Origin: Salana multivorans
GTDB lineage: Bacteria; Actinomycetota; Actinomycetes; Actinomycetales; Beutenbergiaceae
Direction: 5' to 3'
Assembly: GCF_003751805.1 (NCBI RefSeq)
Contig: NZ_RKHQ01000002.1
Span: 992,001-1,056,000 of the forward strand
Length of the DNA stretch: 64,000 nt
Each line of letters starts with the position of its first letter. The first letter of the stretch is position 1. A program made the translations under genes and the position numbers. Under the pieces are notes generated by a model. That model ran no database searches, was not told the origin of the DNA, and was given only the letters and a program-made list of their open reading frames with translations. Below are positions 19,763 through 38,918 of the stretch, in pieces.

Positions 19763-20281
19763 CTACCGGCCGGCGTCCCGCGCGCCGCGGTCCGCCCAGT
19801 AGTCGAGCTCGCCCTGGTACCGCTCGGCGCGCTCGACGTCGATCCTGCGCCCGACGACGAGCGAGACCACCCACAGCAGGGCGAAGGTGACGGCGACCGC
19901 GAGCAGGTGGACGCGCAGGTCGGCCACGAGCGCGCCGGCGAGCAGGAACGCCACCTGGATCGCGCTGCCCGCGACGTATCCGGCGACGCCGCGGAGCATG
20001 CCGGCGGCGAGGAAGCAGACGAGCGCCCCGCCGATGCCGACCGCCAGCAGCACCGGACCGGACGCGGTCCGCATCCCGTACGCGGCGAGCGTCGCGAAGA
20101 ACACGACGAACGCCTGGCAGGCGAGCACGGTCGCGCAGAACATCCGCCGGGCCGACCGGGGTGGACGCGGCGGCCCCCCGGCGGGCGTCGGGTCCGCGGC
20201 CTCCGGCGCGCCGGACCCGTCCCGCGGCGCCTCGGGGGTGCCGGGGTCGGTGGGGCCCGTGGGGTGCTCGGTCACGGTCAC
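19763..20281 (-). CDS. DUF4233 membrane protein
   Basis: This 172-residue protein has a proline-rich cytoplasmic N-terminal ~45 residues and four hydrophobic helices (for example VLACQAFVVFFATLAAYGM and LLAVGIGGALVCFLAAGML). It ends with a short polar tail containing WADRG. The pattern matches DUF4233, an actinobacterial family usually encoded between folC and ndk; its function is unknown. The GTG start overlaps the dhaM stop codon (GTGA), so the gene is now translationally coupled to the dihydroxyacetone kinase operon instead of folC. This odd junction marks the probable left edge of an inserted region. Confidence 0.85.
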   Translation of the reverse strand: MTVTEHPTGPTDPGTPEAPRDGSGAPEAADPTPAGGPPRPPRSARRMFCATVLACQAFVVFFATLAAYGMRTASGPVLLAVGIGGALVCFLAAGMLRGVAGYVAGSAIQVAFLLAGALVADLRVHLLAVAVTFALLWVVSLVVGRRIDVERAERYQGELDYWADRGARDAGR

Positions 20282-21063
20282 AGCTCGCCGAACCCGTCCT
20301 CGAACGCCGCGACGACGGACGCGAGCGCCGCGGCGGCCTGCGGCCCCGTGGCCACGACCTGCGCGGTCGCGCCAGCGGCGAGGCCGAGCCCCATGAGCGA
20401 GAGCAGGCTGGAGGCGTCGACGCCGTCGAGCGTCACGGCGGCGTCGAACTCGGCGACCTGCCGGGCGAGGAGCGCGGCCGGCCGGGCGTGCAGCCCCTCC
20501 GGGTTGACGACGGTCACCGTCGCCCGAGCCTCGCCGTCGGTCGCCGGGCCGGCGTCGGCGGCCGCGTCGAGCTCCGTCCCCGCGAGCGGGTCGATCGCGC
20601 CGGCATCCTCGGCGTCGCCGCCGGCGGAGAGTGGAGCGCCGGCAGCCGGGAGCTGGTCCGCGAGCTCGCGCGTCGTCCGCGCGACCACGGCGACGACGCC
20701 GGCGGCATCCGCCCCGGTCTGCGCGGCGACGGCCCCGGCGACGGTGCCCTCGACGAAGGCTCCGGTCGCGAGGTGCAGCCGCGGGTCCTCCGTCAGGTCG
20801 AGCACGGCCTCGGCCGTCATCCGCGCCGACCCGAGGTCGGCGAGCACGACGACCCCGGAGCACCCGGCCTCGAGCACCTCCTGGACCGCGGCCTCGACGA
20901 CGTCGAACCCGGTGCCGAGCCGGCCGTCCGAGGTCCCGCCAGCCGGCCGCAGCACGACGTCGGGCGCCATCTGCCCCGCGAGGTCGGCGAGACCGGAGGC
21001 GAGGGCCGCCGAGTGCGAGACGAGCACGAGGCCCGTCCCGCGACCCGGCTGCGACCCGGCCAC
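20278..21063 (-). CDS. dhaM: DhaM: PTS EIIA(Man)-HPr phosphodonor for DhaL
   Basis: DhaM passes phosphate from the PTS to the ADP bound on DhaL. The 261-residue protein joins an EIIA-mannose-type domain (active His17 in LVLVSHSAA) through an Ala/Pro/Asp-rich linker to an HPr domain (His192 in NPEGLHARPA). The EI-like third domain of the E. coli protein is absent, so general EI from elsewhere in the genome must supply phosphate. It is third in dhaK-dhaL-dhaM, 2 bp after dhaL. Confidence 0.93.
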   Translation of the reverse strand: MAGSQPGRGTGLVLVSHSAALASGLADLAGQMAPDVVLRPAGGTSDGRLGTGFDVVEAAVQEVLEAGCSGVVVLADLGSARMTAEAVLDLTEDPRLHLATGAFVEGTVAGAVAAQTGADAAGVVAVVARTTRELADQLPAAGAPLSAGGDAEDAGAIDPLAGTELDAAADAGPATDGEARATVTVVNPEGLHARPAALLARQVAEFDAAVTLDGVDASSLLSLMGLGLAAGATAQVVATGPQAAAALASVVAAFEDGFGEL

Positions 21064-21065
21064 GC

Positions 21066-21736
21066 TCAGCTCTCGGCCGCGGCGCGCGCCGCGGCATCGA
21101 GCAGGAGCGCCGTCGAGGCGGCGCCCGGGTCCTTGTGACCCGCGCTGCGCTCGCCGAGATAGCTCGCCCGGCCCTTGAGCGCGACGAGCGGGATGGTCGC
21201 CTCGGCACCCTCGCCCGCGGCGCGGGCGGCGGCGGCGAGCGCGTCGGCGGCCGAGCCACCGGCCGCGGCGACCTCGCTCGCGGCCGCCACGGCGGGCGTC
21301 CAGGCGTCGACCATCGTCTTGTCGCCGACGTTGGCCTTGCCGCGCGCGACGATGCCGCCGAGGGCCGCCTCGAGCAGCGCGTGGACGCCGGCCGCGTCGA
21401 CGTCGGCGACGTCGCTCACCTTGGCCGCGCGCAGGAAGGCGGTGCCGTACAGCGGACCGGCCGCGCCGCCGACCGTCGACATGAGGGTCGTCGCCACGAG
21501 CTTGAGGATGCCGCCGACGGTCGTCGCCTCGCTGGCCTGGACGGCCGCGTCGGCGGCGGTGAACCCGCGGGCGAGGTTCTCGCCGTGGTCGCCGTCGCCG
21601 ATCTCCCGGTCCAGCTCGGACAGCTCGACCCGGTGCGCCAGGACGTCCGCCGTCGCGAGGGCGATGAAGCGCCGCGCCCAGGCGACGTCGATGGTCGATC
21701 CGTCGGGTGCTCCGGTCGGGGTTCCTGCGTCAGTCG

Positions 21737-21749
<13 letters not shown>
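21066..21749 (-). CDS. dhaL: Dihydroxyacetone kinase ADP-binding subunit DhaL
   Basis: DhaL holds a permanently bound ADP that is rephosphorylated by DhaM and then phosphorylates dihydroxyacetone on DhaK. The 227-residue all-helical protein has the Mg-nucleotide motif EIGDGDHGENLARGF and a C-terminal KGRASYLGERSAGHKDPGA lid segment. Its start overlaps the end of dhaK by 13 bp, indicating coupled translation. The length is slightly above the usual 210 residues because of a short N-terminal extension. Confidence 0.95.
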
Positions 21750-22735
<986 letters not shown>

Positions 22736-22841
22736 GGCTCGCTCCCTTGCGTCGGTTCGTCCTCGGCCGCGCAGGCCGCGCGGCGCCGCCGGGTCCTGCG
22801 GACCCACCTCATACTCTGCCGCGCCGGGGGCGAAGTTGGAA

Positions 22842-22894: not shown

Positions 22895-23938
22895 TCAGGG
22901 AAGCGGCGGGCGGCACAGGACGAGCTCGACCGGCTCGGCGTCACCCGCGTCCTCGACCGTCACGTCCCCCCACGCCGCCGGGACGAGCAGCGTCTGGCCC
23001 ACCGTCACCTCGACCGGCTCGACGCCTCCGCCGGGCTCTCCGGAGCCGTGTCCGACCAGCCGTCCGACACCGTGCGTCACGACGACGACCGCAAAGCCGG
23101 CCGGCCACGCGTCGCCGGCACCGAGCCGGTCCGCGCGGAAGAACGCCGCGCCCCCGGGCAGCAGCTCGCCGCGGGTCCCGGCCCGCGCCTGGACGAGGGC
23201 GCGCACGTCGTCGGCGGAGCTGGCGCGGCGGTCGACCGCACCGAGCGCCGTGGGGAAGCCGAGGCCGAGGTGACCGTCCCGCGGGCCGTCGATCGCGAAG
23301 TCCTGCCACTCCATGAGGATCGAGAGGTCCGTCGGCTCCTGCAGCTCGACGACGAGCGCGCCCGCGCCGATCGCGTGGGCGGTGCCGGCGGGCACGAGGA
23401 CGGCGTCACCCGCGGAGACCTCGAGGTGGTGCATCGCGCCGAGCATCCCGGCGACGTCCTGCTCACCGACCCACCGGTCGAGCTCCTCGCGCGAGACGTC
23501 GCGCGTGAAGCCGAGCCCGACCCGGCACGGCGCGAGCACGATCCAGGCCTCCGTCTTGCCGTGGGCGAGCCCGAGGTGCTCGCGCGCGAACGGGACGTCG
23601 GGGTGGACGTGGACGGGCAGCCGCTCCCCCGCGTCGAGGAGCTTGACGAGCAGGCCGACGTCGGCGCCGTACCGCTGGACGTGGGCGGCGCCGAGCCAGG
23701 CGACCGGGTCCGCCTCGACGGCCTCGCGCAGGAGACGGCCGTCGGGCAGGCGGCTGAGACCGAGCTCCCGCTCGCCGAACAGCGTCGTGCACGAGCCGAC
23801 CCAGTCCTCCGGCGTGCGCAGCAGCGCGGACGCGTCGGGGGCGGGCAGCCGGGCTCCGTCGCGGAAGGCGGCGATGCGCTCGCCCCCGCGGTAGAAGCGG
23901 TCGGCTGGCTGGTTCGGCGCGAGGGTCACGGGGTGCAC
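22895..23938 (-). CDS. manA: Class I mannose-6-phosphate isomerase-like protein
   Basis: Family members interconvert mannose-6-P and fructose-6-P, or related aldose/ketose phosphates. The 347-residue cupin-fold protein has the metal site PVHVHPDVPFAREHLG followed by HGKTEAW. A second cupin part with VPAGTAHAIGAGALVVELQE completes the family pattern. GTG at 23938 is 4 bp after AGGAGG. GTG at 23929, overlapping the previous stop as GTGA, is an alternative giving 344 residues. It is last in the operon. Given its neighbours it may act on another sugar phosphate, so the symbol is by family only. Confidence 0.85.
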   Translation of the reverse strand: MHPVTLAPNQPADRFYRGGERIAAFRDGARLPAPDASALLRTPEDWVGSCTTLFGERELGLSRLPDGRLLREAVEADPVAWLGAAHVQRYGADVGLLVKLLDAGERLPVHVHPDVPFAREHLGLAHGKTEAWIVLAPCRVGLGFTRDVSREELDRWVGEQDVAGMLGAMHHLEVSAGDAVLVPAGTAHAIGAGALVVELQEPTDLSILMEWQDFAIDGPRDGHLGLGFPTALGAVDRRASSADDVRALVQARAGTRGELLPGGAAFFRADRLGAGDAWPAGFAVVVVTHGVGRLVGHGSGEPGGGVEPVEVTVGQTLLVPAAWGDVTVEDAGDAEPVELVLCRPPLP

Positions 23939-25005
23939 GGGTCCTCCTGGGACGGGGTCGGGGCTGCGGTCGGGCCGGCGGGAACGAGGGACGGCGACGC
24001 GGGGTCGACGTCGACGACGACGCGGGCGCGCAGCTCCTCGCCCGGCGCGAGGACGGGGGCGCCGGCCCACGGCCGGGTCCGCTCGGGGCCGAACAGCGCG
24101 GCGTTGGCCGGCTCGATCCCGAGCGCCCACGTGCCGGTCTGGGGGAAGCACCAGGTGTCGAGGCGCGGCAGCGTCGCCGTCGTCCAGGTGACGCGGGCGC
24201 GGGGCGCGCCGTCCGGACCCGTCAGGACCGCGACGGCGGTGTCGGTCGCCGTCGCGGCGTCCCAGGCGGGGCTGCGGTGCTCGGCGACGACCGGAGCGTG
24301 GCCGGGGTCGGCGCCCGGGACGTCCAGCGCCGTGCGACCCTCCGGCAGCGGCTCGCGCGTGCGGGTGGTCAGCCGCCCGTCCCCCGCGTCGACCTCGACC
24401 CGGCCGCCGGGAGCGAGCAGCGGCGCGCCGAGGTTGACGTGGTAGAGCAGCGCGATCCCGGCCGAGGCGGCGCCGGCGTTGCGCCACACGTCGTCGACCG
24501 TGACGGCACCCGACCCGGTCGCGACGCGGATGGTGCGCCGGACGACGAGCCGCGGGCCGCCGAGGCTCGTGTGCGCGACGCTGCCGGAGACCTCGACGAC
24601 GATCTCGCCGTCCCGCTCGACGCGGCGCCAGGTGACGTCGTGGGCCGGCGTGCCGTGGTGCGTCCCGTGCTGGCCGCGACCCTCGCGCGGCTCGCCGATG
24701 TTGTCCGGCCCGCAGGTGACGAGCAGCCCGCCGCGGAACCGCGACTCCCAGTCGGCCCACGGCCCGGGGTCGACCGGGTTCGGGGAGCGCCACGCGACGG
24801 GCACGCCCGCGTACCAGGCCTGGCCGAGGTCGAGGCCGTGGTCGAGCAGCACGTCGAGGTGCAGCCCGCCAGCCAGCCGGAGGCGCAGCACGCGCTCTCC
24901 CCCGGCGGCGACGACCTCGCCGACGTCCGCGACCAGGTCGACGAGCGGCGCGTAGCCGGCGGTCACGAGATCGGCCCAGCCGGACGGCTGCGGGGAGATG
25001 GGCAC
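23926..25005 (-). CDS. DUF4432 aldose-epimerase-like protein
   Basis: This 359-residue beta-rich protein resembles the aldose 1-epimerase superfamily of the DUF4432 branch. It shows LDHGLDLGQAWYAGVPVAWRSP, then RGGLLVTCGPDNIGEP and a HGTHHGTPAHDV histidine segment typical of that fold. Members are usually assumed to handle sugar anomers or epimers, but few have been tested. It lies between the predicted ADP-dependent kinase and manA, with its stop inside the manA start region. Its role in substrate entry is inferred from context. Confidence 0.8.
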   Translation of the reverse strand: MPISPQPSGWADLVTAGYAPLVDLVADVGEVVAAGGERVLRLRLAGGLHLDVLLDHGLDLGQAWYAGVPVAWRSPNPVDPGPWADWESRFRGGLLVTCGPDNIGEPREGRGQHGTHHGTPAHDVTWRRVERDGEIVVEVSGSVAHTSLGGPRLVVRRTIRVATGSGAVTVDDVWRNAGAASAGIALLYHVNLGAPLLAPGGRVEVDAGDGRLTTRTREPLPEGRTALDVPGADPGHAPVVAEHRSPAWDAATATDTAVAVLTGPDGAPRARVTWTTATLPRLDTWCFPQTGTWALGIEPANAALFGPERTRPWAGAPVLAPGEELRARVVVDVDPASPSLVPAGPTAAPTPSQEDPCTP

Positions 25006-25067: not shown

Positions 25068-26336
25068 TCAGCGGGTTGGCTCGGGGCGGGCGAGCGCCGC
25101 GACGAAGCCCCCGACGAACGTGTCGCCGAGCCCGATCGTCGTGGGGTCTGCCGTGACCAGCCGCAGGGCCGGCTCGACGACCAGACCGGGCACGAGGTCC
25201 GCGAGGGCGCCGGCGCGGGCGAGGTTGGCCGGGTCGGGGTCGAGGGCGGCGACGGCGTCGTAGCCGGCGCGGTCGAGGGCGTCACCGTGCAGGTAGCGCG
25301 CGCCAGCGGCCGTGATCCCGCCGCGCAGCGCCGGGCGCAGGGCCTCCGCGTCGTCCCCGACGGCGAGCGCCCACAGGCTCGAGTGGACGACGATGGTGCG
25401 CGCCGGGACGATGCGGCGCAGCTCGGCGAGGGCGCGCGCGACGTCGTCGACGTCCGCCGGGTCGACGGTCCGCCCGACGAAGGCCCCCAGCTCGTCCTCG
25501 TTCATCGAGTAGACATGCGCGAGCGGGGCCATGACCGCGGTGACGCGGGCGCGGAACGACTCGACGTGGTAGCCGGCCTCCTCCCAGAGCACGAGGGTGC
25601 CCGGGTCGAGCGAGGCGACGATGGCCCCGAGCTCGGCGAGCCGCTCCGCCAGGACGTCGGCCTCCTGGATCGCGTTGAGCGAGGACAGCACGAGGATGCG
25701 GGCGCGGCGAGCCGCCTCGGCGAGACCGGGCGCGAGGCGGAGCGCCCGGTTGGGCGGGTCGTTCGTCAGGATCACCCGGTTGGGCGCCGGCGTGCGGATC
25801 TCGCCGTCGGCCAGCTCGATGACCGCGTCCGCCGGGTACTGGACGATGAGGTGCGGGTCGAGGCTCGCCGAGTCGCCGTGGCGCAGCACCGCGACGCCCG
25901 GCGGCAGGAGCCGGCGCATCGTCGGGTCGACGTCGACGACCGCGACGGTCGCGGGGATGCCGAGGATCGCCATGAGGATCGCGGCGCGGATGTTGGTGCC
26001 GCCGAGCGTGACGCGGTGGGGGAACCGGTCCGCGAGCGCCCACGCGATCGCGGAGCTGGCGAGGAAGACCTCGTTGCCCCGGCCGCGCGCCATGAGCGCG
26101 AGCGTCACCCGGAGCGCCGAGCGGACGTCGAGGATCGGGACGAGGGGGTCGAGGTCGGCGAGACGGATCCCCTCCTCCCGTGCGAGCCGGCTCCACGTCT
26201 CGGCCGACCACGCGAGCTCGACGTCGACGGTCCCGGCCAGCCCCATGACGATCTCGCCGGCACCGGGATCGGGCCGGACGGGGCCGGGATCACCCGACGT
26301 CACGGTGTCGCCGGTGGTCGGAGCGGTCAGGGGCAT
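25068..26336 (-). CDS. Predicted ADP-dependent sugar (phospho)kinase
   Basis: The protein resembles the ADP-dependent phosphofructokinase/glucokinase family, best known from archaeal glycolysis, where ADP rather than ATP donates phosphate. The 422 residues show VTLGGTNIRAAILMAILG near the sugar site, the Mg-related NXXE motif in SMNEDEL, and the catalytic GXGD motif in GLGDTFVGGF. The length and motif order fit that family rather than the shorter PfkB kinases. It lies between a class II aldolase and a DUF4432/ManA pair, which suggests it makes a sugar phosphate or bisphosphate for the aldolase. Nucleotide and sugar specificity are not proven by sequence. Confidence 0.78.
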   Translation of the reverse strand: MPLTAPTTGDTVTSGDPGPVRPDPGAGEIVMGLAGTVDVELAWSAETWSRLAREEGIRLADLDPLVPILDVRSALRVTLALMARGRGNEVFLASSAIAWALADRFPHRVTLGGTNIRAAILMAILGIPATVAVVDVDPTMRRLLPPGVAVLRHGDSASLDPHLIVQYPADAVIELADGEIRTPAPNRVILTNDPPNRALRLAPGLAEAARRARILVLSSLNAIQEADVLAERLAELGAIVASLDPGTLVLWEEAGYHVESFRARVTAVMAPLAHVYSMNEDELGAFVGRTVDPADVDDVARALAELRRIVPARTIVVHSSLWALAVGDDAEALRPALRGGITAAGARYLHGDALDRAGYDAVAALDPDPANLARAGALADLVPGLVVEPALRLVTADPTTIGLGDTFVGGFVAALARPEPTR

Positions 26337-27431: not shown

Positions 27432-28337
27432 TCAGACCTTGACCGCGCCGGCGGTCATGCCGCCGATGAAGTAGCGCTGGAAGAAGAGGAAGAGGATGAG
27501 GACGGGCAGGCAGCCCATGACGCTCATCGCCATCATCTGGTTCCACTCGTAGGAGTGCTGGCCCATGAGGAGCTGGATCCCGATGGGCACCGTGCGCATG
27601 TCCTCGGTCCTGGTCAGCGTGAGGGCGAACAGGAACTCGTTCCACGCGATCATGAAGGTGTAGACGCCCACCGACACCAGCCCGGGGACCGCGATCGGCA
27701 CGAGCACCCGCCACAGCGCGGTCCACGACCCGGCCCCGTCGACCCGGACCGCCTCGTCCAGCTCCTTGGGCAGGGTGTTGAAGTAGCCCGTCAGCATGAT
27801 GACCGCGTACGGGAGCGTGAACACCATGTAGGTGAGGATGAGACCGGGGTAGGTGTTGTAGAGCCGGAGCGCGACCATGAGCCCGAAGTACGGGATCAGC
27901 AGCGTGATCGGCGGCACCGCCTGGACGCTCACGATGACGACGTTGAGCGTTCGCTTGAGCGGGAAGTCGAACCGGCTGAACGCGTACCCCGCGAGGATCC
28001 CGACGAAGAGCGTCAGGACCGTCACGGCCCCGGCCACGACGTAGCTGTTGACGAAGAACCGGACCTTGACCGGGTCGGTCAGGATCGCGGTGAACGCGTC
28101 GAAGGAGAAGCTCGACGTGATGAGCTGCGGCGGCGACGCGAACATCTCGCCGTTCGTCTTGAACGAGCTCGACAGCATCCACAGCACGGGGAGGCCGGCG
28201 AACAGCGCGGCGACGAGGAGCGCGACGAAGGCGCCGATCGACTTGCCCGTGCTGGAGCGCCCGCGCCGCGGCACGTTCAGCGAGCGAGGGGCCGGGGTCC
28301 GCCCGGGGACGGCGTCGGTCGTCTCTGCGTAGGCCAT
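27432..28337 (-). CDS. ABC sugar importer permease, MalG type (system 1)
   Basis: This is an inner-membrane subunit of a CUT1 carbohydrate importer. The 301-residue protein has a basic N-terminal tail and six predicted helices. The cytoplasmic EAA loop LDEAVRVDGAGSWTALWRVL contacts the ATPase. The ATG lies 1 bp after the MalF-type gene. The C terminus IGGMTAGAVKV is nearly the same as in the paralogous system 2 permease (VGGMTAGAVKT). No ATPase gene is in the cluster. Confidence 0.93.
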   Translation of the reverse strand: MAYAETTDAVPGRTPAPRSLNVPRRGRSSTGKSIGAFVALLVAALFAGLPVLWMLSSSFKTNGEMFASPPQLITSSFSFDAFTAILTDPVKVRFFVNSYVVAGAVTVLTLFVGILAGYAFSRFDFPLKRTLNVVIVSVQAVPPITLLIPYFGLMVALRLYNTYPGLILTYMVFTLPYAVIMLTGYFNTLPKELDEAVRVDGAGSWTALWRVLVPIAVPGLVSVGVYTFMIAWNEFLFALTLTRTEDMRTVPIGIQLLMGQHSYEWNQMMAMSVMGCLPVLILFLFFQRYFIGGMTAGAVKV

Positions 28338-28338
28338 C

Positions 28339-29277
28339 TCAGTCCCTCGCCTTCTGACTACGGGCGTAGAAGAACGCCAGGACCATGGACATGACGAGGA
28401 TGACGACGGCGCTCGTCGCGGCCATCGCGAACTGGTACTTGGTGAACGCGAGCTTGTACGTGAAGGTGCTGAGCACCTCGGTCGCGTCGATGGGGCCGCC
28501 GCCCGTCGTCATCCAGATGAGCGCGAACTGCTGGGTCGTCCAGATGAAGTCGAGCAGCGCGAGGCTGATGAGCAGCGGGCGCAGCTGCGGGATGGTGATG
28601 TTGAAGAACCGCTGCCACCAGCCGGCGCCGTCGACCTTGGCCGCCTCGTAGAGGTCGCGCGGGATCCCCTGCAGCCCCGCGAGGAGGCTGATCATGTAGA
28701 ACGGGTAGCCCGACCAGATGTTGATGAAGGTGACGGCCGCGAGCGCGGTCGCGGGGCTGGCGAGCCACTCGGTCTGCCCGCCCGTGAGGCCGACGGCCTC
28801 GAGGATGAAGTTCACCACGCCGTTGGGTGAGAGCAGCATCCGCCACAGCACCGCGATGATCGCGACGGTGAAGAGCCACGGCAGCACGAGGATGACGCGG
28901 AACGTCGCCTTGGTCCACGTCCCCAGCAGCTCGGTGTTCAGCAGCATCGCGAACGTGACGCCGAGGACGAGGTGGACGACGACGCTGACGGCCGTGAAGA
29001 CGAACGTGTTCCTCGCGGCCTTCCAGAAGGCGCCGTCGCCGAGGATGTCGAGGTAGTTCGCCAGTCCGACGAGCTCGGGGTTCTTGTTGGTGATGACGTT
29101 GTCCATCACCGAGTACCCGATCACCATGACGATGGGCACCGCCATGAGGACGAGCAGGAGCAGGATCGTCGGGGAGAGGTACCCGAACGGGGTGAGCAGC
29201 CGGCCCCAGTGGAGCCGGCGGGGGCGCTGCGACGGCGTCCCCAGCCCAGCCGGCCGGCTGGGAGTCGTGACGGTCAT
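28339..29277 (-). CDS. ABC sugar importer permease, MalF type (system 1)
   Basis: This 312-residue CUT1 permease has six predicted transmembrane helices and the EAA loop YEAAKVDGAGWWQRFFNITI. It has the conserved segment NIWSGYPFYMISLLAGLQGI, which is almost identical in system 2. A ribosome site (GGAGG) precedes the ATG. It is separated from the binding-protein gene by a 79-bp gap with a stable stem-loop, which likely lowers permease relative to binding-protein expression. Confidence 0.93.
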   Translation of the reverse strand: MTVTTPSRPAGLGTPSQRPRRLHWGRLLTPFGYLSPTILLLLVLMAVPIVMVIGYSVMDNVITNKNPELVGLANYLDILGDGAFWKAARNTFVFTAVSVVVHLVLGVTFAMLLNTELLGTWTKATFRVILVLPWLFTVAIIAVLWRMLLSPNGVVNFILEAVGLTGGQTEWLASPATALAAVTFINIWSGYPFYMISLLAGLQGIPRDLYEAAKVDGAGWWQRFFNITIPQLRPLLISLALLDFIWTTQQFALIWMTTGGGPIDATEVLSTFTYKLAFTKYQFAMAATSAVVILVMSMVLAFFYARSQKARD

Positions 29278-29303
29278 GCGGACCTCCTAGGTCGAGGGTC
29301 GCG

Positions 29304-29341
29304 CCCGCCGGACGCCCGAGGTCGCTCGGACGTCCGGCGGG
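29304..29341 (-). terminator. Stem-loop between binding protein and permeases (system 1)
   Basis: An 11-bp stem (29304-29314 and 29331-29341) lies 15 bp after the binding-protein stop and before the permease start. Such intercistronic hairpins stabilise the upstream mRNA or cause partial termination. The second importer has a hairpin at the same place. Confidence 0.6.
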
Positions 29342-29356
29342 AGCACGGGGCTGGAC

Positions 29357-30664
29357 CTAGAACTCGGCTTCCCAGGACTTCTGGGCGTTGGCGAGGGCGT
29401 CCTCCATCGGCTGGTCACCGTTGAGGGCCTTCTGGAACTCCTGCGAGAACTGGCGCATGAGCTCCTCGGCGACGGGCAGGCCCGTGAACTCGTTGGCCGG
29501 GTAGCCGGCCTGGTAGATCTCGAACGCCTTCTCGATCAGCGGGTCGGCGTCCGCGAAGTCGGGCTTGGAGCCGACGTTGCCGGGGAAGGCGTTCGCCATC
29601 GTCGAGAGCTCGGAGTTGGTGGACTCGCTCATGAGGAACGAGACGAGCTTCCACGCCTCCTCCTTGTGGTCGCTGTTGTCCGCGACGCCGATGCCCCACG
29701 AGGCGTAGGGGATGCCCCGCTCGCCGTCGTAGCCGTCCTGCGCCGGGATGGCCGAGATGCTGAACTCGAGGTCGGGGTTCGCCTCGCGGATCAGGTTGAT
29801 GTGGGCGAGGGAGTCGATCATCATGCCGACGCGGCCGTTGGTGAACTCCTCGACCATGTCCTGCTCCTTCATGGTGAAGGCGCCGGGCGCGGTGACCCCG
29901 TCGTCCCAGAGCTGCTGCAGGAACGCCATGGCCGACGAGACGTCGTCGTTGGTGAGGTCGGGCTGGCCGTCCTTGAGCATCGAGCCGCCCGACGCCCACA
30001 CCCAGGACATGACGTTGTTCTGGATGCCGCTCGGCTGCTCCAGCGAGAGCGGGAAGATCCACCCGGGCTGGCTCGTGGCGTCCTTGATCTTCTGGGCCGC
30101 GGCCGAGAACTCGGAGCGGTTCGACGGGATCGAGGTCACGCCGGCGTCCGCCAGCAGGGCGTCGTTCGTGTAGAGCGGGTAGACGAAGTTGACGACCGGG
30201 ATCATGTAGGTCGCGCCGTCGACCTGGATCTGGCTCGCCAGCTCGGAGTCGTCGTAGCCGAACTCGCTCATGAGCGCCGTGAGGTCGGCGATGGAGCCCT
30301 GCTTGGCGAAGTCGTAGACCCACGCGCCGTCGAGGCCGACGACGTCCGGCATCGTGCCGGCGGCGGCGCTGGCGATCACCTGCTCCTTGGTCGACGCGTA
30401 CGGGCCGGACAGGAGCTCGACCTTGATCCCCGGGTTCTCGGCCTCGAACTTGTCGATGAGCGCGCGGAACTCACCGCTCGGGAGCTCCGGCTCCCACCAC
30501 TGCTGGAACTCGAGCGTGACCTGCTCGCCGCCGCCGTCACCACCCGTCGACCCGCCGCCGTCCCCCGTCGACGTACCGCCGCCCGATCCGCCACCGCACG
30601 CGGCGACGAGACCGACGGCAGCGAGACCCGCAACCGATGCGAGCCAGTGCTTCCGACTGACCAT
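29357..30664 (-). CDS. Extracellular sugar-binding lipoprotein (system 1)
   Basis: This is a family 1 solute-binding protein of a CUT1 importer, 435 residues. It has a lipoprotein signal with lipobox LVAAC and a Gly/Ser/Thr linker. A mature domain opens with EFQQWWEPELPSGEFRALI and continues with VNFVYPLYTND. The ATG at 30664 follows GGAGGAG. It is first in the operon leading to permeases, aldolase, ADP-dependent kinase, DUF4432 and ManA-like genes. It is clearly paralogous to the protein at 35.6-36.9 kb (shared QWWE, YPxYxN and VEEFTxGR segments). Confidence 0.93.
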   Translation of the reverse strand: MVSRKHWLASVAGLAAVGLVAACGGGSGGGTSTGDGGGSTGGDGGGEQVTLEFQQWWEPELPSGEFRALIDKFEAENPGIKVELLSGPYASTKEQVIASAAAGTMPDVVGLDGAWVYDFAKQGSIADLTALMSEFGYDDSELASQIQVDGATYMIPVVNFVYPLYTNDALLADAGVTSIPSNRSEFSAAAQKIKDATSQPGWIFPLSLEQPSGIQNNVMSWVWASGGSMLKDGQPDLTNDDVSSAMAFLQQLWDDGVTAPGAFTMKEQDMVEEFTNGRVGMMIDSLAHINLIREANPDLEFSISAIPAQDGYDGERGIPYASWGIGVADNSDHKEEAWKLVSFLMSESTNSELSTMANAFPGNVGSKPDFADADPLIEKAFEIYQAGYPANEFTGLPVAEELMRQFSQEFQKALNGDQPMEDALANAQKSWEAEF

Positions 30665-30957: not shown

Positions 30958-31779
30958 CTAGGGGGTGATGACCTCGACGCCCGCGGCGGCGAGCGCCTCG
31001 GCGAGCTCGCCCTCGGGTGCCCGCTCGGTGACGAGGTAGTCGGCGGCCTCGAACGAGGCGATCCGCGCGAAGAGCTGGCGGCCGAACTTCGAGGAGTCCG
31101 CGAGGACCGCGACCTTCGCGGCGCGGTTGATCATCCCGGCCATCATCGCGGCCTCGCCGAGGTTGCTGGTCGACCAGCCCTGCTCGACGGAGACCGCCCC
31201 GACCGCGATGAGCGCGAGGTCGGCGCGGATGTGCACGTCGCCGGGGTTCTCGGCGGACTCGAACACGACGGGGCCGACCGTCGCCTGCGAGACGAACCGC
31301 ACGGTGCCGCCGATGAGGTAGAGGTCGCGGACGCACTCGGGGCTGATCTCCTGCGGCAGGCGCAGGTTGTTCGTCGCGATGGTCAGCTCCCGGTGGCCGC
31401 GCAGGTGCCGGGCGAGGGCGAGCGTCGTCGTGCCGGAGTTGACCGTGATGGCGGTGTTGTCCTCGACGAGGCCCGCGGCCAGCTCGCCGATCCGCTCCTT
31501 CGCCTCGGCCTGGACGCGGATGCGCACGTCGAGCGCCGAGTCGGGCTTGGGGAACCCGGAGAGGCTGACGGCTCCCCCGTGCGTGCGGAGCAGGACGCCG
31601 TCGGCGTCGAGCCGGTCGAGGTCGCGCCGGATGGTGTCGGGCGACACCTCGAACCGCTCGGCGAGCTGCGCGACCGTCACCTCCCCCACGCCGTTGACGT
31701 AGGACGCGAGCTCGGCCTTGCGCCCGGCGGGAAGCCGCCTACCCGTGCTGATGGTCTCACTCCCCTGCGTCGTTGCCAT
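30958..31779 (-). CDS. DeoR/GlpR-family repressor 1
   Basis: This is a sugar-phosphate-responsive repressor of 273 residues. The N-terminal winged helix is TVAQLAERFEVSPDTIRRDLDRLDADG with the family RTHGGAVSL motif. The C-terminal isomerase-fold sensor domain has NSGTTTLALARHL and VLADSSKFGRQ motifs. It lies upstream of system 1 on the same strand, with the next gene start 293 bp away. Its targets are likely the AACGAA-type sites at both ends of the cluster. A longer N-terminal tail precedes the helix than in DeoR 2. Confidence 0.92.
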   Translation of the reverse strand: MATTQGSETISTGRRLPAGRKAELASYVNGVGEVTVAQLAERFEVSPDTIRRDLDRLDADGVLLRTHGGAVSLSGFPKPDSALDVRIRVQAEAKERIGELAAGLVEDNTAITVNSGTTTLALARHLRGHRELTIATNNLRLPQEISPECVRDLYLIGGTVRFVSQATVGPVVFESAENPGDVHIRADLALIAVGAVSVEQGWSTSNLGEAAMMAGMINRAAKVAVLADSSKFGRQLFARIASFEAADYLVTERAPEGELAEALAAAGVEVITP

Positions 31780-31895: not shown

Positions 31896-32897
31896 TCAGC
31901 GCGGCAGCGCGGCCGGCGAGCGGAACACGACGGGCGTGTAGTCCGCCGCCTTCCCCGCCTGGCCGAACACGACCATCCGCTCCGCCACCATGTCCGACAT
32001 CGCGGTCCGTCCGGCGCTCGCCGCGGGCGCGGGGTCGGCGGCGAGCGGGGTCGAGGCGAGGTGCGCGCGCATCGCGGCCGCGTAGGCCATGTGCGAGTCC
32101 ATGCCCTGGTTGATCTTCGTGACGCCGAGCGTCGTGGAGCGGGCCTTCTCCTCCTCCGGGACGCCCCACGACTCCGGGAGCGCGCCGCCGTGGGCGTTGA
32201 TGATCTCGCGCAGGTGCGCCGGCAGCGACGACGAGCCGTGCATGACGAGGTGCGTGCCGGGGATCCGGCCTGCGATCTCCTCGATCAGGTCCATGTGCAG
32301 CACGGTCGAGTCGGGCGGGCTGGTGAACTTGTATGCGCCGTGCGACGTGCCGATGGCGACGGCGAGCGCGTCCACGCCGGTGCGCGCCACGAACTCGGCG
32401 GCCTCGTCCGGGTCGGCGAGGACGATCTCGGCGTGCGTGGCGCCGTCCTTCGACCCACCGATCGTGCCCAGCTCGCCCTCGACGGAGACGCCGCGCTCGT
32501 GCGCGTACTCGACCACCCGGAGCGTGACGGCGATGTTGTCGTCGAAGCTCATCGGCTGGTGCGTCTCGGGGTCGAGGCTGCCGTCGATCATGACGCTGGA
32601 GAAGCCGGCGTCGATGGCGCGGAAGCAGGTCTCGGCGTCCGGCCCGTGGTCCAGGTGCACGACGACCGGGACGTCCTCGTAGTGGTCGACCGTCCGCAGC
32701 AGCAGGTCCCAGAACAGCTCGTCGGAGGCGAAGGCGGAGGCTCCGGCGATCGTCTGGACGATGACGGGCGACGCGGTGCGACGCGCGGCGTCGAGCACGG
32801 CCTCGACCTGCTCGATGTCGGTGACGTTGAACGCGCCGACGCCGTAGCCGCCGGCTCGGGCATGGTCGAGGACCTCGCGGAGTGTACAAAGTGCCAT
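31896..32897 (-). CDS. Class II fructose-bisphosphate aldolase (copy 2)
   Basis: This 333-residue zinc aldolase is longer than the other two copies. It has VHLDHGPDAETC, GFSSVMIDGSLDP, EGELGTIGGSKDG, the LVMHGSSSLP phosphate-site motif and GVTKINQGMDSHMA. The insertions near the DHAP site and the extended C terminus match the group that includes classical class IIA/B fructose-bisphosphate aldolases. It is divergent from the FGGY kinase gene across a 200-bp region holding a large inverted repeat, so the two are likely coregulated. The substrate is unknown. Confidence 0.9.
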   Translation of the reverse strand: MALCTLREVLDHARAGGYGVGAFNVTDIEQVEAVLDAARRTASPVIVQTIAGASAFASDELFWDLLLRTVDHYEDVPVVVHLDHGPDAETCFRAIDAGFSSVMIDGSLDPETHQPMSFDDNIAVTLRVVEYAHERGVSVEGELGTIGGSKDGATHAEIVLADPDEAAEFVARTGVDALAVAIGTSHGAYKFTSPPDSTVLHMDLIEEIAGRIPGTHLVMHGSSSLPAHLREIINAHGGALPESWGVPEEEKARSTTLGVTKINQGMDSHMAYAAAMRAHLASTPLAADPAPAASAGRTAMSDMVAERMVVFGQAGKAADYTPVVFRSPAALPR

Positions 32898-32984
32898 GGG
32901 CGGCGGCCTTTCGCTTGCCGGATCGTCGCGCCCACGCCCCCGGACCGGGGCGTCGGACGCCTGGGACAGACGTTGAGTAGAGTA

Positions 32985-33025
32985 ACAGAACGAATGCTAG
33001 TTGGCTTCTAATCATTTCGTTCTGT
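32985..33025. promoter_or_regulatory. Inverted-repeat operator between aldolase 2 and FGGY kinase
   Basis: A perfect 10-bp inverted repeat (ACAGAACGAA at 32985-32994, TTCGTTCTGT at 33016-33025) with a 21-bp spacer sits in the middle of the divergent promoter region. Half-site centres are about three helical turns apart. The core AACGAA/TTCGTT also occurs upstream of the first sugar-binding-protein gene. The region is visibly AT-richer than its surroundings. The likely binder is one of the two DeoR regulators. Confidence 0.7.
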
Positions 33026-33098
33026 GATGCCGCCGGACCCTCCGGCGGCCGCGGACGACCGCGCCGAAGGGCGCGAGGCCGGACATGGGAGGAGCACC

Positions 33099-34484
33099 GT
33101 GAACGAGGACGTGCTGGTCGGGGTCGACATCGGCAGCTCGCGGGTCAAGGCCGCCGCGTACCGCCGCGACGGGACGCTCGCGGCGATCGCCGACGCGCCG
33201 ACACCGGTCGTGACGCACGCCGAGGGGGACGACTTCCCGGTGCTGGAGATGCTGGCCGCCGCGGCCGGCGCCGTCCGGGGACTCCGGCTCCCACCTGCGT
33301 CGATCGTCGGTCTCGCGGTCACGTCGATGGGCGAGGTCGGCACGGTCCTCGCCGACGACGGGCTGCGGGACGTCGTCTTCCCGTCCTGGTACGACGGACG
33401 CGGGGTCGACGTCGTCGACCACCTCGAGCTGACGTGGGGCGCGCGCGAGCTGCGCGACCGGACCGGCCGGCACGCGCGGCTGGTCTCGACCGTCGCCAAG
33501 CTCGGCTCCGTCCCGTCCGTGCCCGCCGGCACCTTCGTCGGAGTTGCGGGTGCTTTCGTCTGGCAGCTCACGGGAGAGGCGTGGCAGGAGGCGTCGCTGG
33601 CCGCGTCGAGCGGGGTGTACGACGTCGTGCGACGCACGTACCTCGACGACGTCTGGGCGAGCGCCGGGCTCGCGCACGTCGCCCTGCCGCCGGTGCGGCG
33701 GCCTGGCGCGTGGAGCCCGGCGAGCACCGACCTGGCGACCGAGCTCGGCCTCGCGCCCGGCGCCCCCGTCGTGATCGCCGGCCACGACCACCCGGTCGCC
33801 TCCCTCGGGGCCGGCGCGCGACCCGGCGAGGTGGTCGACTCGATCGGGACGGGCGAGGCGGTCATCGCCGTCGTGCGCCCCGACCTCGCCGCCGACCCGG
33901 ACCACCTCCCATCGCTCCTCGACCTCGACCCGTACCTGAGCGTCGAGATGTGGCCGTCGACCGGGGAGCAGCTCGTCGTCTGGGAGCGGATGCGGCCGGG
34001 TCTCGCGATGCGCACGTTCCTGGACCGGGCGGACCTCGACCGCACGACGCTCGACGCGACCGCGCCCGCCCCGCGCGCGCCCCGCCGCGTCGACGAGGAG
34101 GTCTCGCTCGCGCTCGAGGCCGGCCGAGCGGTCGACCTGGCCTACGACGCCACCGCCTGGGGCGAGCTCACCGACTACTACGTCCTGCTCGCGCAGCGCG
34201 GCGAGCTGCTGGTGCGCCGGGTGACGGGCGCCGACGGCGCCACCGTCCTCACCGGCGGCGGGCTGCGCTCGCCGCGGTGGCGCGCGGCCAAGGCCGAGCT
34301 GGCGACGACCGGCGTGGACGTCTCGACGGTGACCGAGACCGCGACCCGCGGCTGCGCAGCGATGGTCGGCGTCGCCAGCGGCTGGTGGGAGCAGGCGGAG
34401 GCGATGCCGGGCACGGGGCGCGTGCACGTGCGCCCCGGCGCCGTCGACGCCATGGACCGCGCGGCGCAGGTGCTCGGTGGCTGA
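33099..34484 (+). CDS. FGGY-family carbohydrate kinase
   Basis: This is a cytoplasmic sugar kinase of the hexokinase/actin fold. The 461-residue protein has the N-terminal phosphate loop VGVDIGSSRVKAAAYRRDG, the catalytic aspartate in GHDHPVASLGAG and an adenosine-binding TVLTGGGLRSPRWR segment. GTG at 33099 follows GGGAGGAG by 5 bp and removes a non-conserved 25-residue extension. The family covers xylulo-, fuculo-, rhamnulo- and glycerol kinases, and I cannot pick among them. Context with three class II aldolases suggests the phosphorylated ketose is then cleaved. The downstream DeoR gene begins within 65 bp. Confidence 0.9.
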   Translation: MNEDVLVGVDIGSSRVKAAAYRRDGTLAAIADAPTPVVTHAEGDDFPVLEMLAAAAGAVRGLRLPPASIVGLAVTSMGEVGTVLADDGLRDVVFPSWYDGRGVDVVDHLELTWGARELRDRTGRHARLVSTVAKLGSVPSVPAGTFVGVAGAFVWQLTGEAWQEASLAASSGVYDVVRRTYLDDVWASAGLAHVALPPVRRPGAWSPASTDLATELGLAPGAPVVIAGHDHPVASLGAGARPGEVVDSIGTGEAVIAVVRPDLAADPDHLPSLLDLDPYLSVEMWPSTGEQLVVWERMRPGLAMRTFLDRADLDRTTLDATAPAPRAPRRVDEEVSLALEAGRAVDLAYDATAWGELTDYYVLLAQRGELLVRRVTGADGATVLTGGGLRSPRWRAAKAELATTGVDVSTVTETATRGCAAMVGVASGWWEQAEAMPGTGRVHVRPGAVDAMDRAAQVLGG

Positions 34485-34548
34485 GCTCGGCGCGGCCCCC
34501 CGGGTGCCGATCCCGGCGTTCGACGCGGTACCGGTGTACCCTCGCACC

Positions 34549-35304
34549 GTGCATGCTTCCCAACGTCGCGAAGCGATTCTGGCGGCGGTTTTCGCCCGTG
34601 GGACCGTTCTTACCAGGGACCTCGCCGCCCAGCTCAACGTCTCCGAGGTGACGATCCGCAACGACTTCGAGGCGCTGGAGAAGCAGGGACGGGTCGCCCG
34701 CGTGCACGGCGGCGTCACGATGTCCGAGGTCCCCCTCATGGGGTTCGCGGCCCGCTCGGGACAGAACGTCGAGGCGAAGCAGCGGATCTCGGCGGCGGCC
34801 GCCCGGCTCATCAGCGACGGCTCGACCATCATCCTCGACTCCGGGACGACCATCTTCGAGCTGGCGCGCCAGCTCCCCACGGTCTCCGACCTCGTCGTCC
34901 TGACGCCGGGGATCAACATCGCGCTCGCGCTCATGGAGGTCTCCGGGGTGCACGTCCGCCTCCTCGGCGGCCGCGTCGCCCCCGGGATCGCCGCGACGGT
35001 CGGTTCGGCCCGTCAGCAGGGCATCGAGGGCGAGATCGCCCACCTCGCGTTCCTCGGCGCCGGCGCGATCGACGCCGACCACGACGTCGTGGAGGGCTCG
35101 CTCGACATCGCCGAGTCCAAGCGGACGCTCGCCGGGACGGCCCGGCGACGCGTGCTGCTCGCCGACTCCACCAAGTGGTTCACGTTCGACCGGCACAAGG
35201 TGATGAACGTGGCCGACTTCGACACCGTCATCACCGACGACGCCATGCCCGAGTCGACGCGGGAGGCGATCCGCGCGACCGGCACCGAGCTCATCGTCGC
35301 CTGA
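34549..35304 (+). CDS. DeoR/GlpR-family repressor 2
   Basis: This is a repressor of about 251 residues, the normal DeoR size. The winged helix is TRDLAAQLNVSEVTIRNDFEALEKQG followed by RVHGGVTMSE. The sensor domain has ILDSGTTIFELARQL, LLGGRVAPG and VLLADSTKWFT. GTG at 34549 is preceded by TACCCT (34537-34542) with a 6-nt gap, a leaderless pattern that supports this start. A longer frame to 34477 would overlap the kinase gene and add 24 non-conserved residues. Its position between the FGGY kinase and importer 2 suggests it controls one or both. Confidence 0.9.
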   Translation: MHASQRREAILAAVFARGTVLTRDLAAQLNVSEVTIRNDFEALEKQGRVARVHGGVTMSEVPLMGFAARSGQNVEAKQRISAAAARLISDGSTIILDSGTTIFELARQLPTVSDLVVLTPGINIALALMEVSGVHVRLLGGRVAPGIAATVGSARQQGIEGEIAHLAFLGAGAIDADHDVVEGSLDIAESKRTLAGTARRRVLLADSTKWFTFDRHKVMNVADFDTVITDDAMPESTREAIRATGTELIVA

Positions 35305-35455
35305 CCCCTTCCCGCGCGGGTCGGCCGAGCCCAGCCGCGCGTGCACGCGTGCAGCCCGGCCTGCGGCCGGGGGGCTGGGCCGGCCAACGGACCGGAGCCC
35401 GACCGCGACGGGACTCGAAGCACGCCTGCGCCAGGGTGTCACCTCACAACTTGGT

Positions 35456-35488
35456 AACGATATGAAACGTAAGACTGGCGCTTTCGTA
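35456..35488. promoter_or_regulatory. Promoter/operator region of importer 2
   Basis: The 273-bp gap between DeoR 2 and the binding-protein gene is GC-rich in its first half, with short self-complementary stretches. It turns AT-richer near 35446-35510. It contains AACGAT (35456), AAACGT (35465) and TTTCGTA (35482), variants of the AACGAA half-site about 10 bp apart. GGTAACGA is shared exactly with the region upstream of importer 1. It is probably a DeoR-type operator overlapping the promoter. Confidence 0.45.
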
Positions 35489-35577
35489 TCCTGCCGCCTA
35501 CAGTCTGTCTTGGCCACATGGCCGTGCGGGCGCGCCGGCAAGCGTGCACCGCCACGTACTCAAGGAGGAGAAGGACT

Positions 35578-36900
35578 ATGCAGCGCAAGCTTGCGATGGT
35601 CGCGGCACTCGGGGCGGCGACGGCGCTCGCCCTGGCTGGATGCTCGTCGTCGAACCCCGGCACGGGTGGGACGACCGGCTCGGGCAGCACCGACGGGTCG
35701 TCGGGCTCGACCGACGGCGGCGGCTCGGGCGGCGACATCACGCTCGACTTCAGCCAGTGGTGGGAGGTGGAGCTCGCACCGGGCGTCATGCGCGGTCTCA
35801 TGGACCGGTTCGAGGAGGAGAACCCGGGCGTCACGGTCAACCTCATCTCGAACCCCTACTCGGCCACCGTCGACCTCCAGACCTCCGCCGCCGCGACGGG
35901 GACGCTCGCCTGCCTCGTCGCCATCAACGGCGCGAGCGTGTACGACCTGAAGACGCAGGGCGCCATCACGAACCTCAGCACCCTCATGGACGAGGCCGGG
36001 TTCGACCCGTCGACGCTGGTCAGCAACGACCAGATCGACGGCGCCACCTACATGGTGCGGGCGCTCAACTTCGCGTACCCGATGTACTACAACCTGGACC
36101 TGCTCGAGGCCGCGGGCATCACCAAGCTGCCCGAGACGCGCTCGGAGTTCGAGGACGCGGCCACCAAGGTCACCAACCCGGACACCAACGTCTACGCGTG
36201 GTCGCTGCCGATCAACGTCCAGTCCCCCGCCGGGTTCGACTCCCAGTCCTGGCTCTGGGCCTCGGGCGGCCGGTTCCTCAAGGACCGCAAGCCGAACTTC
36301 GAGACCCCGGAGATCGCGAACTGGCTCGGGTTCCTCAAGTCGCAGTACGACGCCGGCGTCATCACGCCCGGTGCCTTCACGCAGCAGGAGCAGCAGAAGG
36401 TCGAGGAGTTCACGGCCGGTCGCAACGCCATGATGAACGGCTCGCTCGCCCACATCTCGGGCATCCGCGAGTCCAACCCCGACCTCAGCTTCGACATCGG
36501 GTACGTCCCGGTCGAGGACGGGTTCACGGGTGAGCGCGGCCTCGCCGGCGCGAGCTGGGGCATGGGCATCGCCGAGAACTGCGAGCACAAGGCCGAGGCC
36601 TGGAAGCTCGTCGAGTTCGTCATGAGCACCGACGTCAACTCGGAGCTCGCCACCGAGGCGACCGGCTTCCCGGGGTCGGTCGACGCCGTCCCGGGCTACG
36701 TCGACGGCGACCCGCTGTACGAGAAGGCCTTCGAGGTCTACCAGAACAGCGAGTTCGTGACCGAGCTCGAGGGCCTGCCGAACGCGCTGGACCTCAACCG
36801 CAACCTCAACGAGAACCTCGTCCGGCTCCTGCAGGGCGACGCGACCATCGAGGAGACGCAGTCCTCGCTCCAGGAGTACTGGACCGGCGTCCTGGGCTAG
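35578..36900 (+). CDS. Extracellular sugar-binding lipoprotein (system 2)
   Basis: This 440-residue family 1 solute-binding lipoprotein has lipobox LALAGC and a Gly/Ser/Thr linker. The mature domain starts DFSQWWEVELAPGVMRGLMDRF and shares IDGATYM, NFAYPMYYN and KVEEFTAGRNAMM segments with the system 1 protein. The ATG at 35578 follows AAGGAGGAG. It heads an operon with two permeases and aldolase 3. The ligand probably resembles that of system 1, but the binding cleft cannot be read from sequence. Confidence 0.93.
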   Translation: MQRKLAMVAALGAATALALAGCSSSNPGTGGTTGSGSTDGSSGSTDGGGSGGDITLDFSQWWEVELAPGVMRGLMDRFEEENPGVTVNLISNPYSATVDLQTSAAATGTLACLVAINGASVYDLKTQGAITNLSTLMDEAGFDPSTLVSNDQIDGATYMVRALNFAYPMYYNLDLLEAAGITKLPETRSEFEDAATKVTNPDTNVYAWSLPINVQSPAGFDSQSWLWASGGRFLKDRKPNFETPEIANWLGFLKSQYDAGVITPGAFTQQEQQKVEEFTAGRNAMMNGSLAHISGIRESNPDLSFDIGYVPVEDGFTGERGLAGASWGMGIAENCEHKAEAWKLVEFVMSTDVNSELATEATGFPGSVDAVPGYVDGDPLYEKAFEVYQNSEFVTELEGLPNALDLNRNLNENLVRLLQGDATIEETQSSLQEYWTGVLG

Positions 36901-36935
36901 TCCTGGGCTGATCGGCCAACACCCGGCCGGCCAGC

Positions 36936-36966
36936 GTGCGCGGGGCGCGTCACGCGCCCCGCGCAC
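36936..36966 (+). terminator. Stem-loop between binding protein and permeases (system 2)
   Basis: A perfect 14-bp stem (36936-36949 and 36953-36966) with a 3-nt loop lies 35 bp after the binding-protein stop. It matches the placement of the hairpin in system 1 and probably sets higher binding-protein than permease levels. Confidence 0.7.
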
Positions 36967-37026
36967 ACCCGCGTGACCCCCAGCGCGGCCCACGACGTCC
37001 AACCCCCTGTCCCCCGCGAGGTTCCG

Positions 37027-37959: not shown

Positions 37960-37960
37960 C

Positions 37961-38848: not shown

Positions 38849-38918
38849 ACCGCCCCGACCGCCCAGCGTCAGCCACCCAGCCCCACCCCCACCGCCTCAC
38901 CAGAAGGACGACACCACC

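Follow-up and report, generated by a model that had tools for sequence, protein, structure and literature searches.

What would an ADP-dependent type of sugar kinase do in a sugar-import operon of an actinobacterium? Most of what is known of ADP-dependent sugar kinases comes from archaea and animals. The relevant sections of a 2025 review of glucose kinases treat ADP-glucokinase in these two groups (PMC12696579), the presence of ADP-dependent kinases in bacteria is mentioned elsewhere as having been reported (PMC7948494), and the passages on CPR bacteria in a further study report no ADP-dependent kinase for them (PMC7304191). The locus considered here lies in a 64,000-nucleotide stretch of the Salana multivorans genome (the window). 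The initial annotation placed the protein in the ADP-dependent phosphofructokinase/glucokinase family and envisaged an ADP-driven route resembling upper glycolysis; the family assignment is borne out by profile, fold and most motifs, whilst the glycolysis-like role fares badly.

The open reading frame (Table 1) is a real gene, on a strand that the initial annotation had left unstated. It matches Pfam PF04587 (ADP_PFK_GK, ADP-dependent phosphofructokinase/glucokinase) at 1.6e-17 (63.8 bits, cut-off 27) and, less well, PfkB at 1.9e-6 (27.9 bits, also above its cut-off of 25.8); the comparison of these two profiles, proposed at the outset as a check, came out on the side of PF04587, and the preference for PfkB that would have spoken against the family did not occur. 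An ATP-dependent PfkB kinase was rejected on this ground and because the X of GXGD is not a small residue, and a PPi-dependent member of the ribokinase group because the RXGRGD motif is absent, with TTIGLGD standing there instead. The genome contains no second PF04587 match, and an NCBIfam scan matched the kinase to no named equivalog, the ADP-glucokinase equivalog PRK14039 being missed at 24.4 bits (cut-off 387). A profile of 12 relatives retrieved 14 PDB sequences below 1e-5, all of them ADP-dependent kinases or reconstructed ancestors thereof, with the best PfkB-type match at 0.034; such a profile was needed, since a single-sequence PDB search gave nothing meaningful (best 0.74). The GXGD and NXXE motifs are present as annotated (G402-L-G-D405 and NEDE at 279–282) and are invariant across a 42-sequence alignment. 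The other site residues are E252 (HXE position), R187, H318, E89 and, at the sugar site, D160 and H162. An HVE at 257–259 was considered as the HXE motif and rejected, as it lacks conservation and the alignment places the motif at L250-W-E252.

An AlphaFold2 model built on the 42-sequence alignment (pLDDT 90.7, pTM 0.88) has a predicted ribokinase-like fold with a lid, which matches solved ADP kinases along its entire length. Residues 1–26 have pLDDT below 50 and little conservation, so the start codon may be more internal. Foldseek aligned the model to solved ADP kinases with a TMq of 0.78; of the 50 matches listed, the first 22 are without exception ADP-dependent kinases (E 4.9e-24 to 5.0e-17) and the 23rd is human ribokinase (2.8e-10). 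VIA-align likewise puts the model closest to ADP-dependent kinases, with Z 37.5 for the archaeal ADP-glucokinase 5o0j (rmsd 3.0, 387 residues aligned); the best match outside the family, among those listed, is 4e3a (Z 23.7, rmsd 3.0, 279 aligned). The ADP-glucokinases of P. furiosus (1ua4), P. horikoshii (5o0j) and T. litoralis (4b8s) have the fold in common with the kinase over 387–390 residues, together with the GXGD leucine, NXXE, the R206- and H360-type nucleotide contacts and the E90- and His-type sugar-site residues; however, identity to them is about 18–20%, and the kinase, encoded in an operon of Actinomycetota together with ABC-import and aldolase genes, lacks the HXE histidine. ADP-PFK and bifunctional ADP-PFK/GK enzymes (6xio, 1u2x, 5od2) belong to the same family and fold, but the kinase is without their K179 and R212 equivalents; mouse ADPGK (5ccf, 5ck7; Z 29.3 and 29.1) has the same fold and, as an animal enzyme, no operon context. 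As identity to solved relatives is just 13–20%, the residue equivalences depend on profile alignments. Membership of the ADP-dependent kinase family is almost certain, and the missing HXE histidine marks the kinase, as judged from its sequence, as a divergent clade of PF04587 and not a standard member of the characterised ADP-dependent sugar kinase group.

The neighbours named in the initial annotation (a class II aldolase, a DUF4432 protein, a ManA-like protein and the ABC genes at 27432–30664) were all found, on the same strand and in a context that is conserved elsewhere; it had not included the DhaKLM genes downstream of the kinase at 20278–22735. We take the DUF4432 protein to be a putative aldose-epimerase-like enzyme. 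Gene spacing suggests a single transcription unit, and there are 4-base overlaps between the DUF4432 and ManA-like genes and between those for DhaK and DhaL. The only Pfam domains of DhaM are EIIA-man and, after it, HPr, so a separate enzyme I would be required for PEP-linked phosphorylation. No palindrome with exact 7-base arms and a spacer of 0–8 was seen in the approximately 320 bases before the solute-binding protein (SBP) gene of the window, and no SBP ligand was assigned from PDB relatives, whose ligand names are too diverse.

Table 1. The kinase gene and its neighbours in the window, in descending order of position.
Feature	Position	Strand	Basis
DeoR-family regulator	30958..31779	minus	profile scan
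ABC solute-binding protein, SBP_bac_1	29357..30664	minus	profile scan (scanned as 29357-30622)
ABC sugar permease 1	28339..29277	minus	named by eye from sequence; conserved order
ABC sugar permease 2	27432..28337	minus	named by eye from sequence; conserved order
Class II aldolase ALD1, PRK08185-like, PF01116	26463..27323	minus	profiles and residue columns
Sugar kinase, PF04587 family, 422 aa	25068..26336	minus	ATG start; ORF, profile and fold
DUF4432 protein	23926..25005	minus	profile scan
ManA-like, class I mannose-6-phosphate isomerase-like	22895..23929	minus	below curated cut-off; no Pfam match
DhaK, dihydroxyacetone kinase subunit	21737..22735	minus	profile scan (scanned as 21737-22807)
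DhaL	21066..21740	minus	profile scan (scanned as 21066-21749)
DhaM, EIIA-man and HPr, phosphoryl donor subunit	20278..21063	minus	profile scan

PF04587 has a patchy distribution and is rare across the phylum as a whole. Of the 24 family genomes 11 carry it, as do 30 of the 347 sampled from the order (15 of 104 genera) and one of the 296 sampled across the phylum, that one being the genome studied here. A pattern scan of GTDB species genomes gave 243 stretches encoding relatives. The best 80 of the 243 were retained, and their titles name Cellulomonas, Microbacterium, Arthrobacter, Serinibacter, Subtercola, Agreia, Promicromonospora, Jiangella and Ruania, among others, all presumably actinobacterial. 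The operon comparison covered 93 regions, namely the window and L018–L109, all found through their PF04587 gene, so that the kinase is present by construction; L026/L030 and L019/L087 are probable duplicates. A simple gene caller recovered the window-type kinase (clade A) in 84 regions, and searching the long open frames with profiles revealed a kinase in every one of the 93; a second clade, B, supplies the sole kinase in two. By gene clustering an aldolase is present in 92 regions, the two permeases in 90 and 89, SBP in 88 and DeoR in 84, while a ManA-like gene after the kinase (51), DUF4432 (16), DhaK/L (6) and DhaM (5) are optional. The recurring order is DeoR, then SBP-permease-permease-aldolase-kinase, followed where present by DUF4432, ManA-like and DhaKLM genes. 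DeoR and SBP were both called in 84 regions; DeoR is divergent in 79 of these and shares the strand in the other five (the window, L026, L027, L030 and L074). The core operon recurs in many, patchily distributed actinobacterial genera.

Clade-B kinase loci (L024:8890-10125, L028:8632-9858 and L022:9542-10573) encode proteins 24–26% identical to that of the window; clade B occurs in some genomes of the family, alone or alongside a clade-A copy, has a canonical HLE motif and adjoins an aldolase of its own type (ALD-B) and an SDR gene. A divergent sulfatase gene stands beside DeoR in L022, L024, L028 and L029. A sulfated sugar was nevertheless rejected as the common substrate, because the sulfatase cluster is found in just four of the 93 regions, all with a clade-B kinase. 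Other nearby genes (alkaline phosphatase, DUF3817, GMP synthase, two glycosyltransferases, tRNA synthetase, acyltransferase) gave no shared sugar theme.

Which acceptor does the kinase use? The clade-A alignment has 92 rows, 90 of them distinct, with 91 readable at each column, the one gap arising from an apparently single gene in L094 that is split into two rows; columns were equated with those of AncMsPFK by eye from HMMER alignments. In the sections of the AncMsPFK study that deal with the sugar site, K179 and R212 are conserved among PFK and bifunctional enzymes, K179A raises the Km for F6P approximately 1,000-fold, the N181 position is His in T. litoralis GK, and GK and bifunctional enzymes retain E90 (PMC7948494). 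The clade-A column for K179, the F6P-phosphate lysine, holds D in 83 rows, H in 5, E in 2 and R in 1, and never K; the R212 column is D, the N181 column H and the E90 column E in all 91 readable rows. By these residues the clade-A sugar site is of GK type and not of ADP-PFK type, although the identity of the sugar is not readable from it. Fructose-6-phosphate is an unlikely substrate, as the kinase resembles GK wherever the sugar site distinguishes ADP-PFK from ADP-GK, and an unphosphorylated acceptor is likely.

The partner aldolase offers a second line of evidence. ALD1 scores 404.3 bits against NCBIfam PRK08185 (named ‘hypothetical protein’; cut-off 405), matches E. coli YdjI (6ofu) at 3.1e-54 and keeps the DHG active-site stretch. 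In the pertinent passages on Giardia FBPA, R259 and R280 bind FBP, S50 is in the binding-site list, and the R259A change takes kcat/Km from 2.4e6 to 866 (PMC6692403). ALD1 of the window has H49, K236 and D256 at the S50-, R259- and R280-type positions and so lacks this set of FBP/TBP aldolase substrate-site residues. The 95-row family alignment includes ALD-B and ALD3, another aldolase of the window, and its S50, K182 and R280 equivalences were read by eye from alignments with 1rv8 and 7ncc, with no superposition. At the S50 position 88 rows have H and 5 have G, with 2 gaps; the K182 position is P and the R259 position K in all 95; and the R280 position is N in 73, L in 10, D in 6, R in 5 and H in 1, the five with R being ALD-B. 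ALD1 thus differs from its PF01116 kin, the class II aldolases (FBA, GatY/KbaY) and YdjI, in having H, P and N/D at S50, K182 and R280. Asp80 and His81 are invariant over the 95 rows, and the GGS and N..S loop residues, which presumably hold the DHAP phosphate, are retained in at least 93. A lysine at the R259 position is also found in the tagatose-bisphosphate aldolase 1gvf; it alone would not exclude a TBP aldolase, and its invariance suggests that binding of a distal phosphate has not been wholly lost. The loss of the K182-type lysine, which we take to be the ligand of the 1-phosphate, does not fit a simple ketose-1-phosphate substrate and keeps a DHA alternative open.

The strongest sign that ALD1 uses the kinase product is the pairing of the two enzymes. 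Clade A occurs with an ALD1-type aldolase only in 86 of the 93 regions (the window being one of these, with two such aldolases), three regions have both A and B kinases with both ALD1 and ALD-B, and two have clade B with ALD-B; the remaining two (L068 and L073) have clade A and no aldolase found at an E-value of 1e-60 or better. Kinase clade and aldolase type thus agree (A with ALD1, B with ALD-B) in 91 of 91 regions with a scored aldolase, and this co-inheritance argues that the kinase probably passes its product to ALD1.

On balance, we favour an ADP-dependent kinase that phosphorylates an unphosphorylated sugar and feeds ALD1, with the chances roughly even that it acts at C1 of a ketose. 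The ABC importer would take up the unphosphorylated sugar, which, where DUF4432 and isomerase-like genes exist, would undergo mutarotation and isomerisation from aldose to ketose. From ADP the kinase would then pass the beta-phosphate to the sugar, leaving AMP and forming a sugar monophosphate; this product, most likely a ketose 1-phosphate, would be split by ALD1 to DHAP and an aldehyde. In the lineage of the window, DhaKLM with PEP may phosphorylate the C3 product, glyceraldehyde or DHA. The operon probably represents a route, common to many actinobacteria, for the uptake and splitting of one particular unphosphorylated sugar.

The gene that follows the kinase bears on the isomerisation step. 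Besides the ManA-like genes, a TIM barrel resembling xylose isomerase occupies the slot in two of the 93 regions (L085 and L091), and no isomerase of the searched types lies within 3 kb of the kinase in 39 (four of which have less than 1 kb of contig left). In five extra loci a GlcNAc-2-epimerase-family gene directly follows the kinase twice, at L114:1519-2679 (minus strand) and L115:10510-11670 (plus). Such unrelated folds in one slot fit an aldose-to-ketose step, ahead of the core reactions, that would be needed only if the imported sugar is an aldose. In Promicromonospora (L091:11293-13148, Pfam scan, and L085) the TIM barrel and a GFO/IDH/MocA oxidoreductase replace the ManA-like and DUF4432 genes; this pair is the only sugar-themed one among the other genes scanned near the operon.

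A different reading of the same genes has the kinase act at C6 like an ADP-glucokinase. The aldose 6-phosphate formed would be converted by the ManA-like protein to a ketose 6-phosphate, ALD1 would release DHA and glyceraldehyde 3-phosphate, and DhaKLM would take the DHA. Relatives of the ManA-like protein normally act on 6-phosphates, which favours this scheme, as do the GK-type sugar site of clade A, the invariant R259-position lysine and the absence of the K182-type lysine from all 95 aldolase rows. The window, L026 and L027, moreover, have DhaKLM immediately downstream, and DhaK/L genes are present in L086 and L093. Yet the scheme is at odds with the distribution of Dak1. Dak1 is found in all 24 family genomes, PF04587-positive or not, and in 14 of the 19 additional order genomes that carry PF04587. 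The five without a Dak1 match (among 30 with PF04587 in the order sample; one of the five, G463, is 88% complete) all have DeoR and SBP-permease-permease-ALD1-kinase. With Dak1 as the one DHA route surveyed, DHA was set aside as an obligate product, and these Dak1-negative core operons favour a ketose-1-phosphate that releases DHAP. Three of the five, from one genus, have no isomerase gene in view, and the two from another genus are those in which the kinase is followed by the GlcNAc-2-epimerase-family protein, whose family works on free sugars. The retention of the GGS and N..S loop residues also tells against a DHA-releasing aldolase, and we know of no class II aldolase that uses DHA naturally. 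E. coli FbaA can use DHA in vitro, according to the part of the literature that touches on it. Overall, we regard this C6 scheme as unlikely.

The route with an unphosphorylated acceptor also presumes ADP as the phosphoryl donor. In the parts of the work of Nagata et al. that concern this motif, GXGD has a small residue at its second position in ATP-dependent members, Ile or Leu in ADP-dependent and Arg in PPi-dependent ones (PMC5931981); all 91 readable clade-A rows and all five clade-B rows have Leu there. The nucleotide-site passages on AncMsPFK describe R206 as contacting the ADP phosphate and H360 its ribose, and R206A as nearly inactive (PMC7948494). Both equivalents are invariant in clade A (R and H, 91/91 each), as are the N and E of NXXE and the glutamate of HXE (the E252 column). 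The HXE histidine, present in 5/5 clade-B rows, is found in none of the 91 readable clade-A rows (Y in 34, F in 25, V in 12, L in 8, M in 7, I in 4 and C in 1), so the handling of Mg-ADP may differ. This loss, with the occurrence of ATP-, ADP- and PPi-dependent members within the one ribokinase superfamily, as the same passages of Nagata et al. relate (PMC5931981), could be taken to mean that an ADP-type fold now uses ATP or PPi; given the GXGD leucine in every readable row of both clades and the invariant ribose-contact histidine and phosphate-contact arginine, we consider that improbable, and family, fold and GLGD make ADP the likely donor.

Least probable of these readings is the PFK-type role implied by the upper-glycolysis-like route of the initial annotation, in which F6P or another ketose 6-phosphate would become a 1,6-bisphosphate for the class II aldolase: ADP-PFKs do belong to the family and the gene adjoins an FBP-aldolase homologue, but the F6P-site residues are missing from the kinase (K179, R212 and N181 columns) and the S50- and R280-type bisphosphate-site residues from ALD1, and the genome has an ordinary PFK (PF00365, three matches, two adjacent to each other).

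The preferred route, from import of a free sugar to cleavage of its monophosphate, recalls the E. coli sulfo-EMP operon YihR-YihS-YihV-YihT, which encodes a mutarotase, an isomerase, a ketose-1-kinase and an aldolase, the kinase being of PfkB type and the aldolase of class I. The likeness is one of logic only. A search over licensed PMC papers found no description of this actinobacterial operon. We put forward tentatively, at somewhat less than even chances, that in this undescribed bacterial route an ADP-dependent kinase of archaeal type has turned into a ketose-1-kinase and keeps strictly to one class II aldolase type as its partner. If so, both sugar-level phosphorylations in the lineage of the window (by ADP at the kinase and by PEP at DhaKLM) would bypass ATP, and the sugar would be one not predicted by current aldolase and kinase models. 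A conserved actinobacterial operon offers a tractable bacterial system in which to ask why ADP is used, on which sugar, and how kinase and aldolase specificities co-evolve; several of the genera that carry it are readily cultured.

A second sugar module adjoins the operon at 31896–39845. It comprises a class II aldolase, ALD2, on the minus strand and, on the plus strand, genes for an FGGY kinase, DeoR, SBP, two permeases and ALD3 (38919–39845). ALD3 is 52% identical to ALD1, with the IHP.E and P182 features in common, and adjoins the FGGY kinase rather than an ADP-type kinase. Beyond the sugar clusters, a large open reading frame of 1333 aa occupies 40031–44032 on the minus strand.
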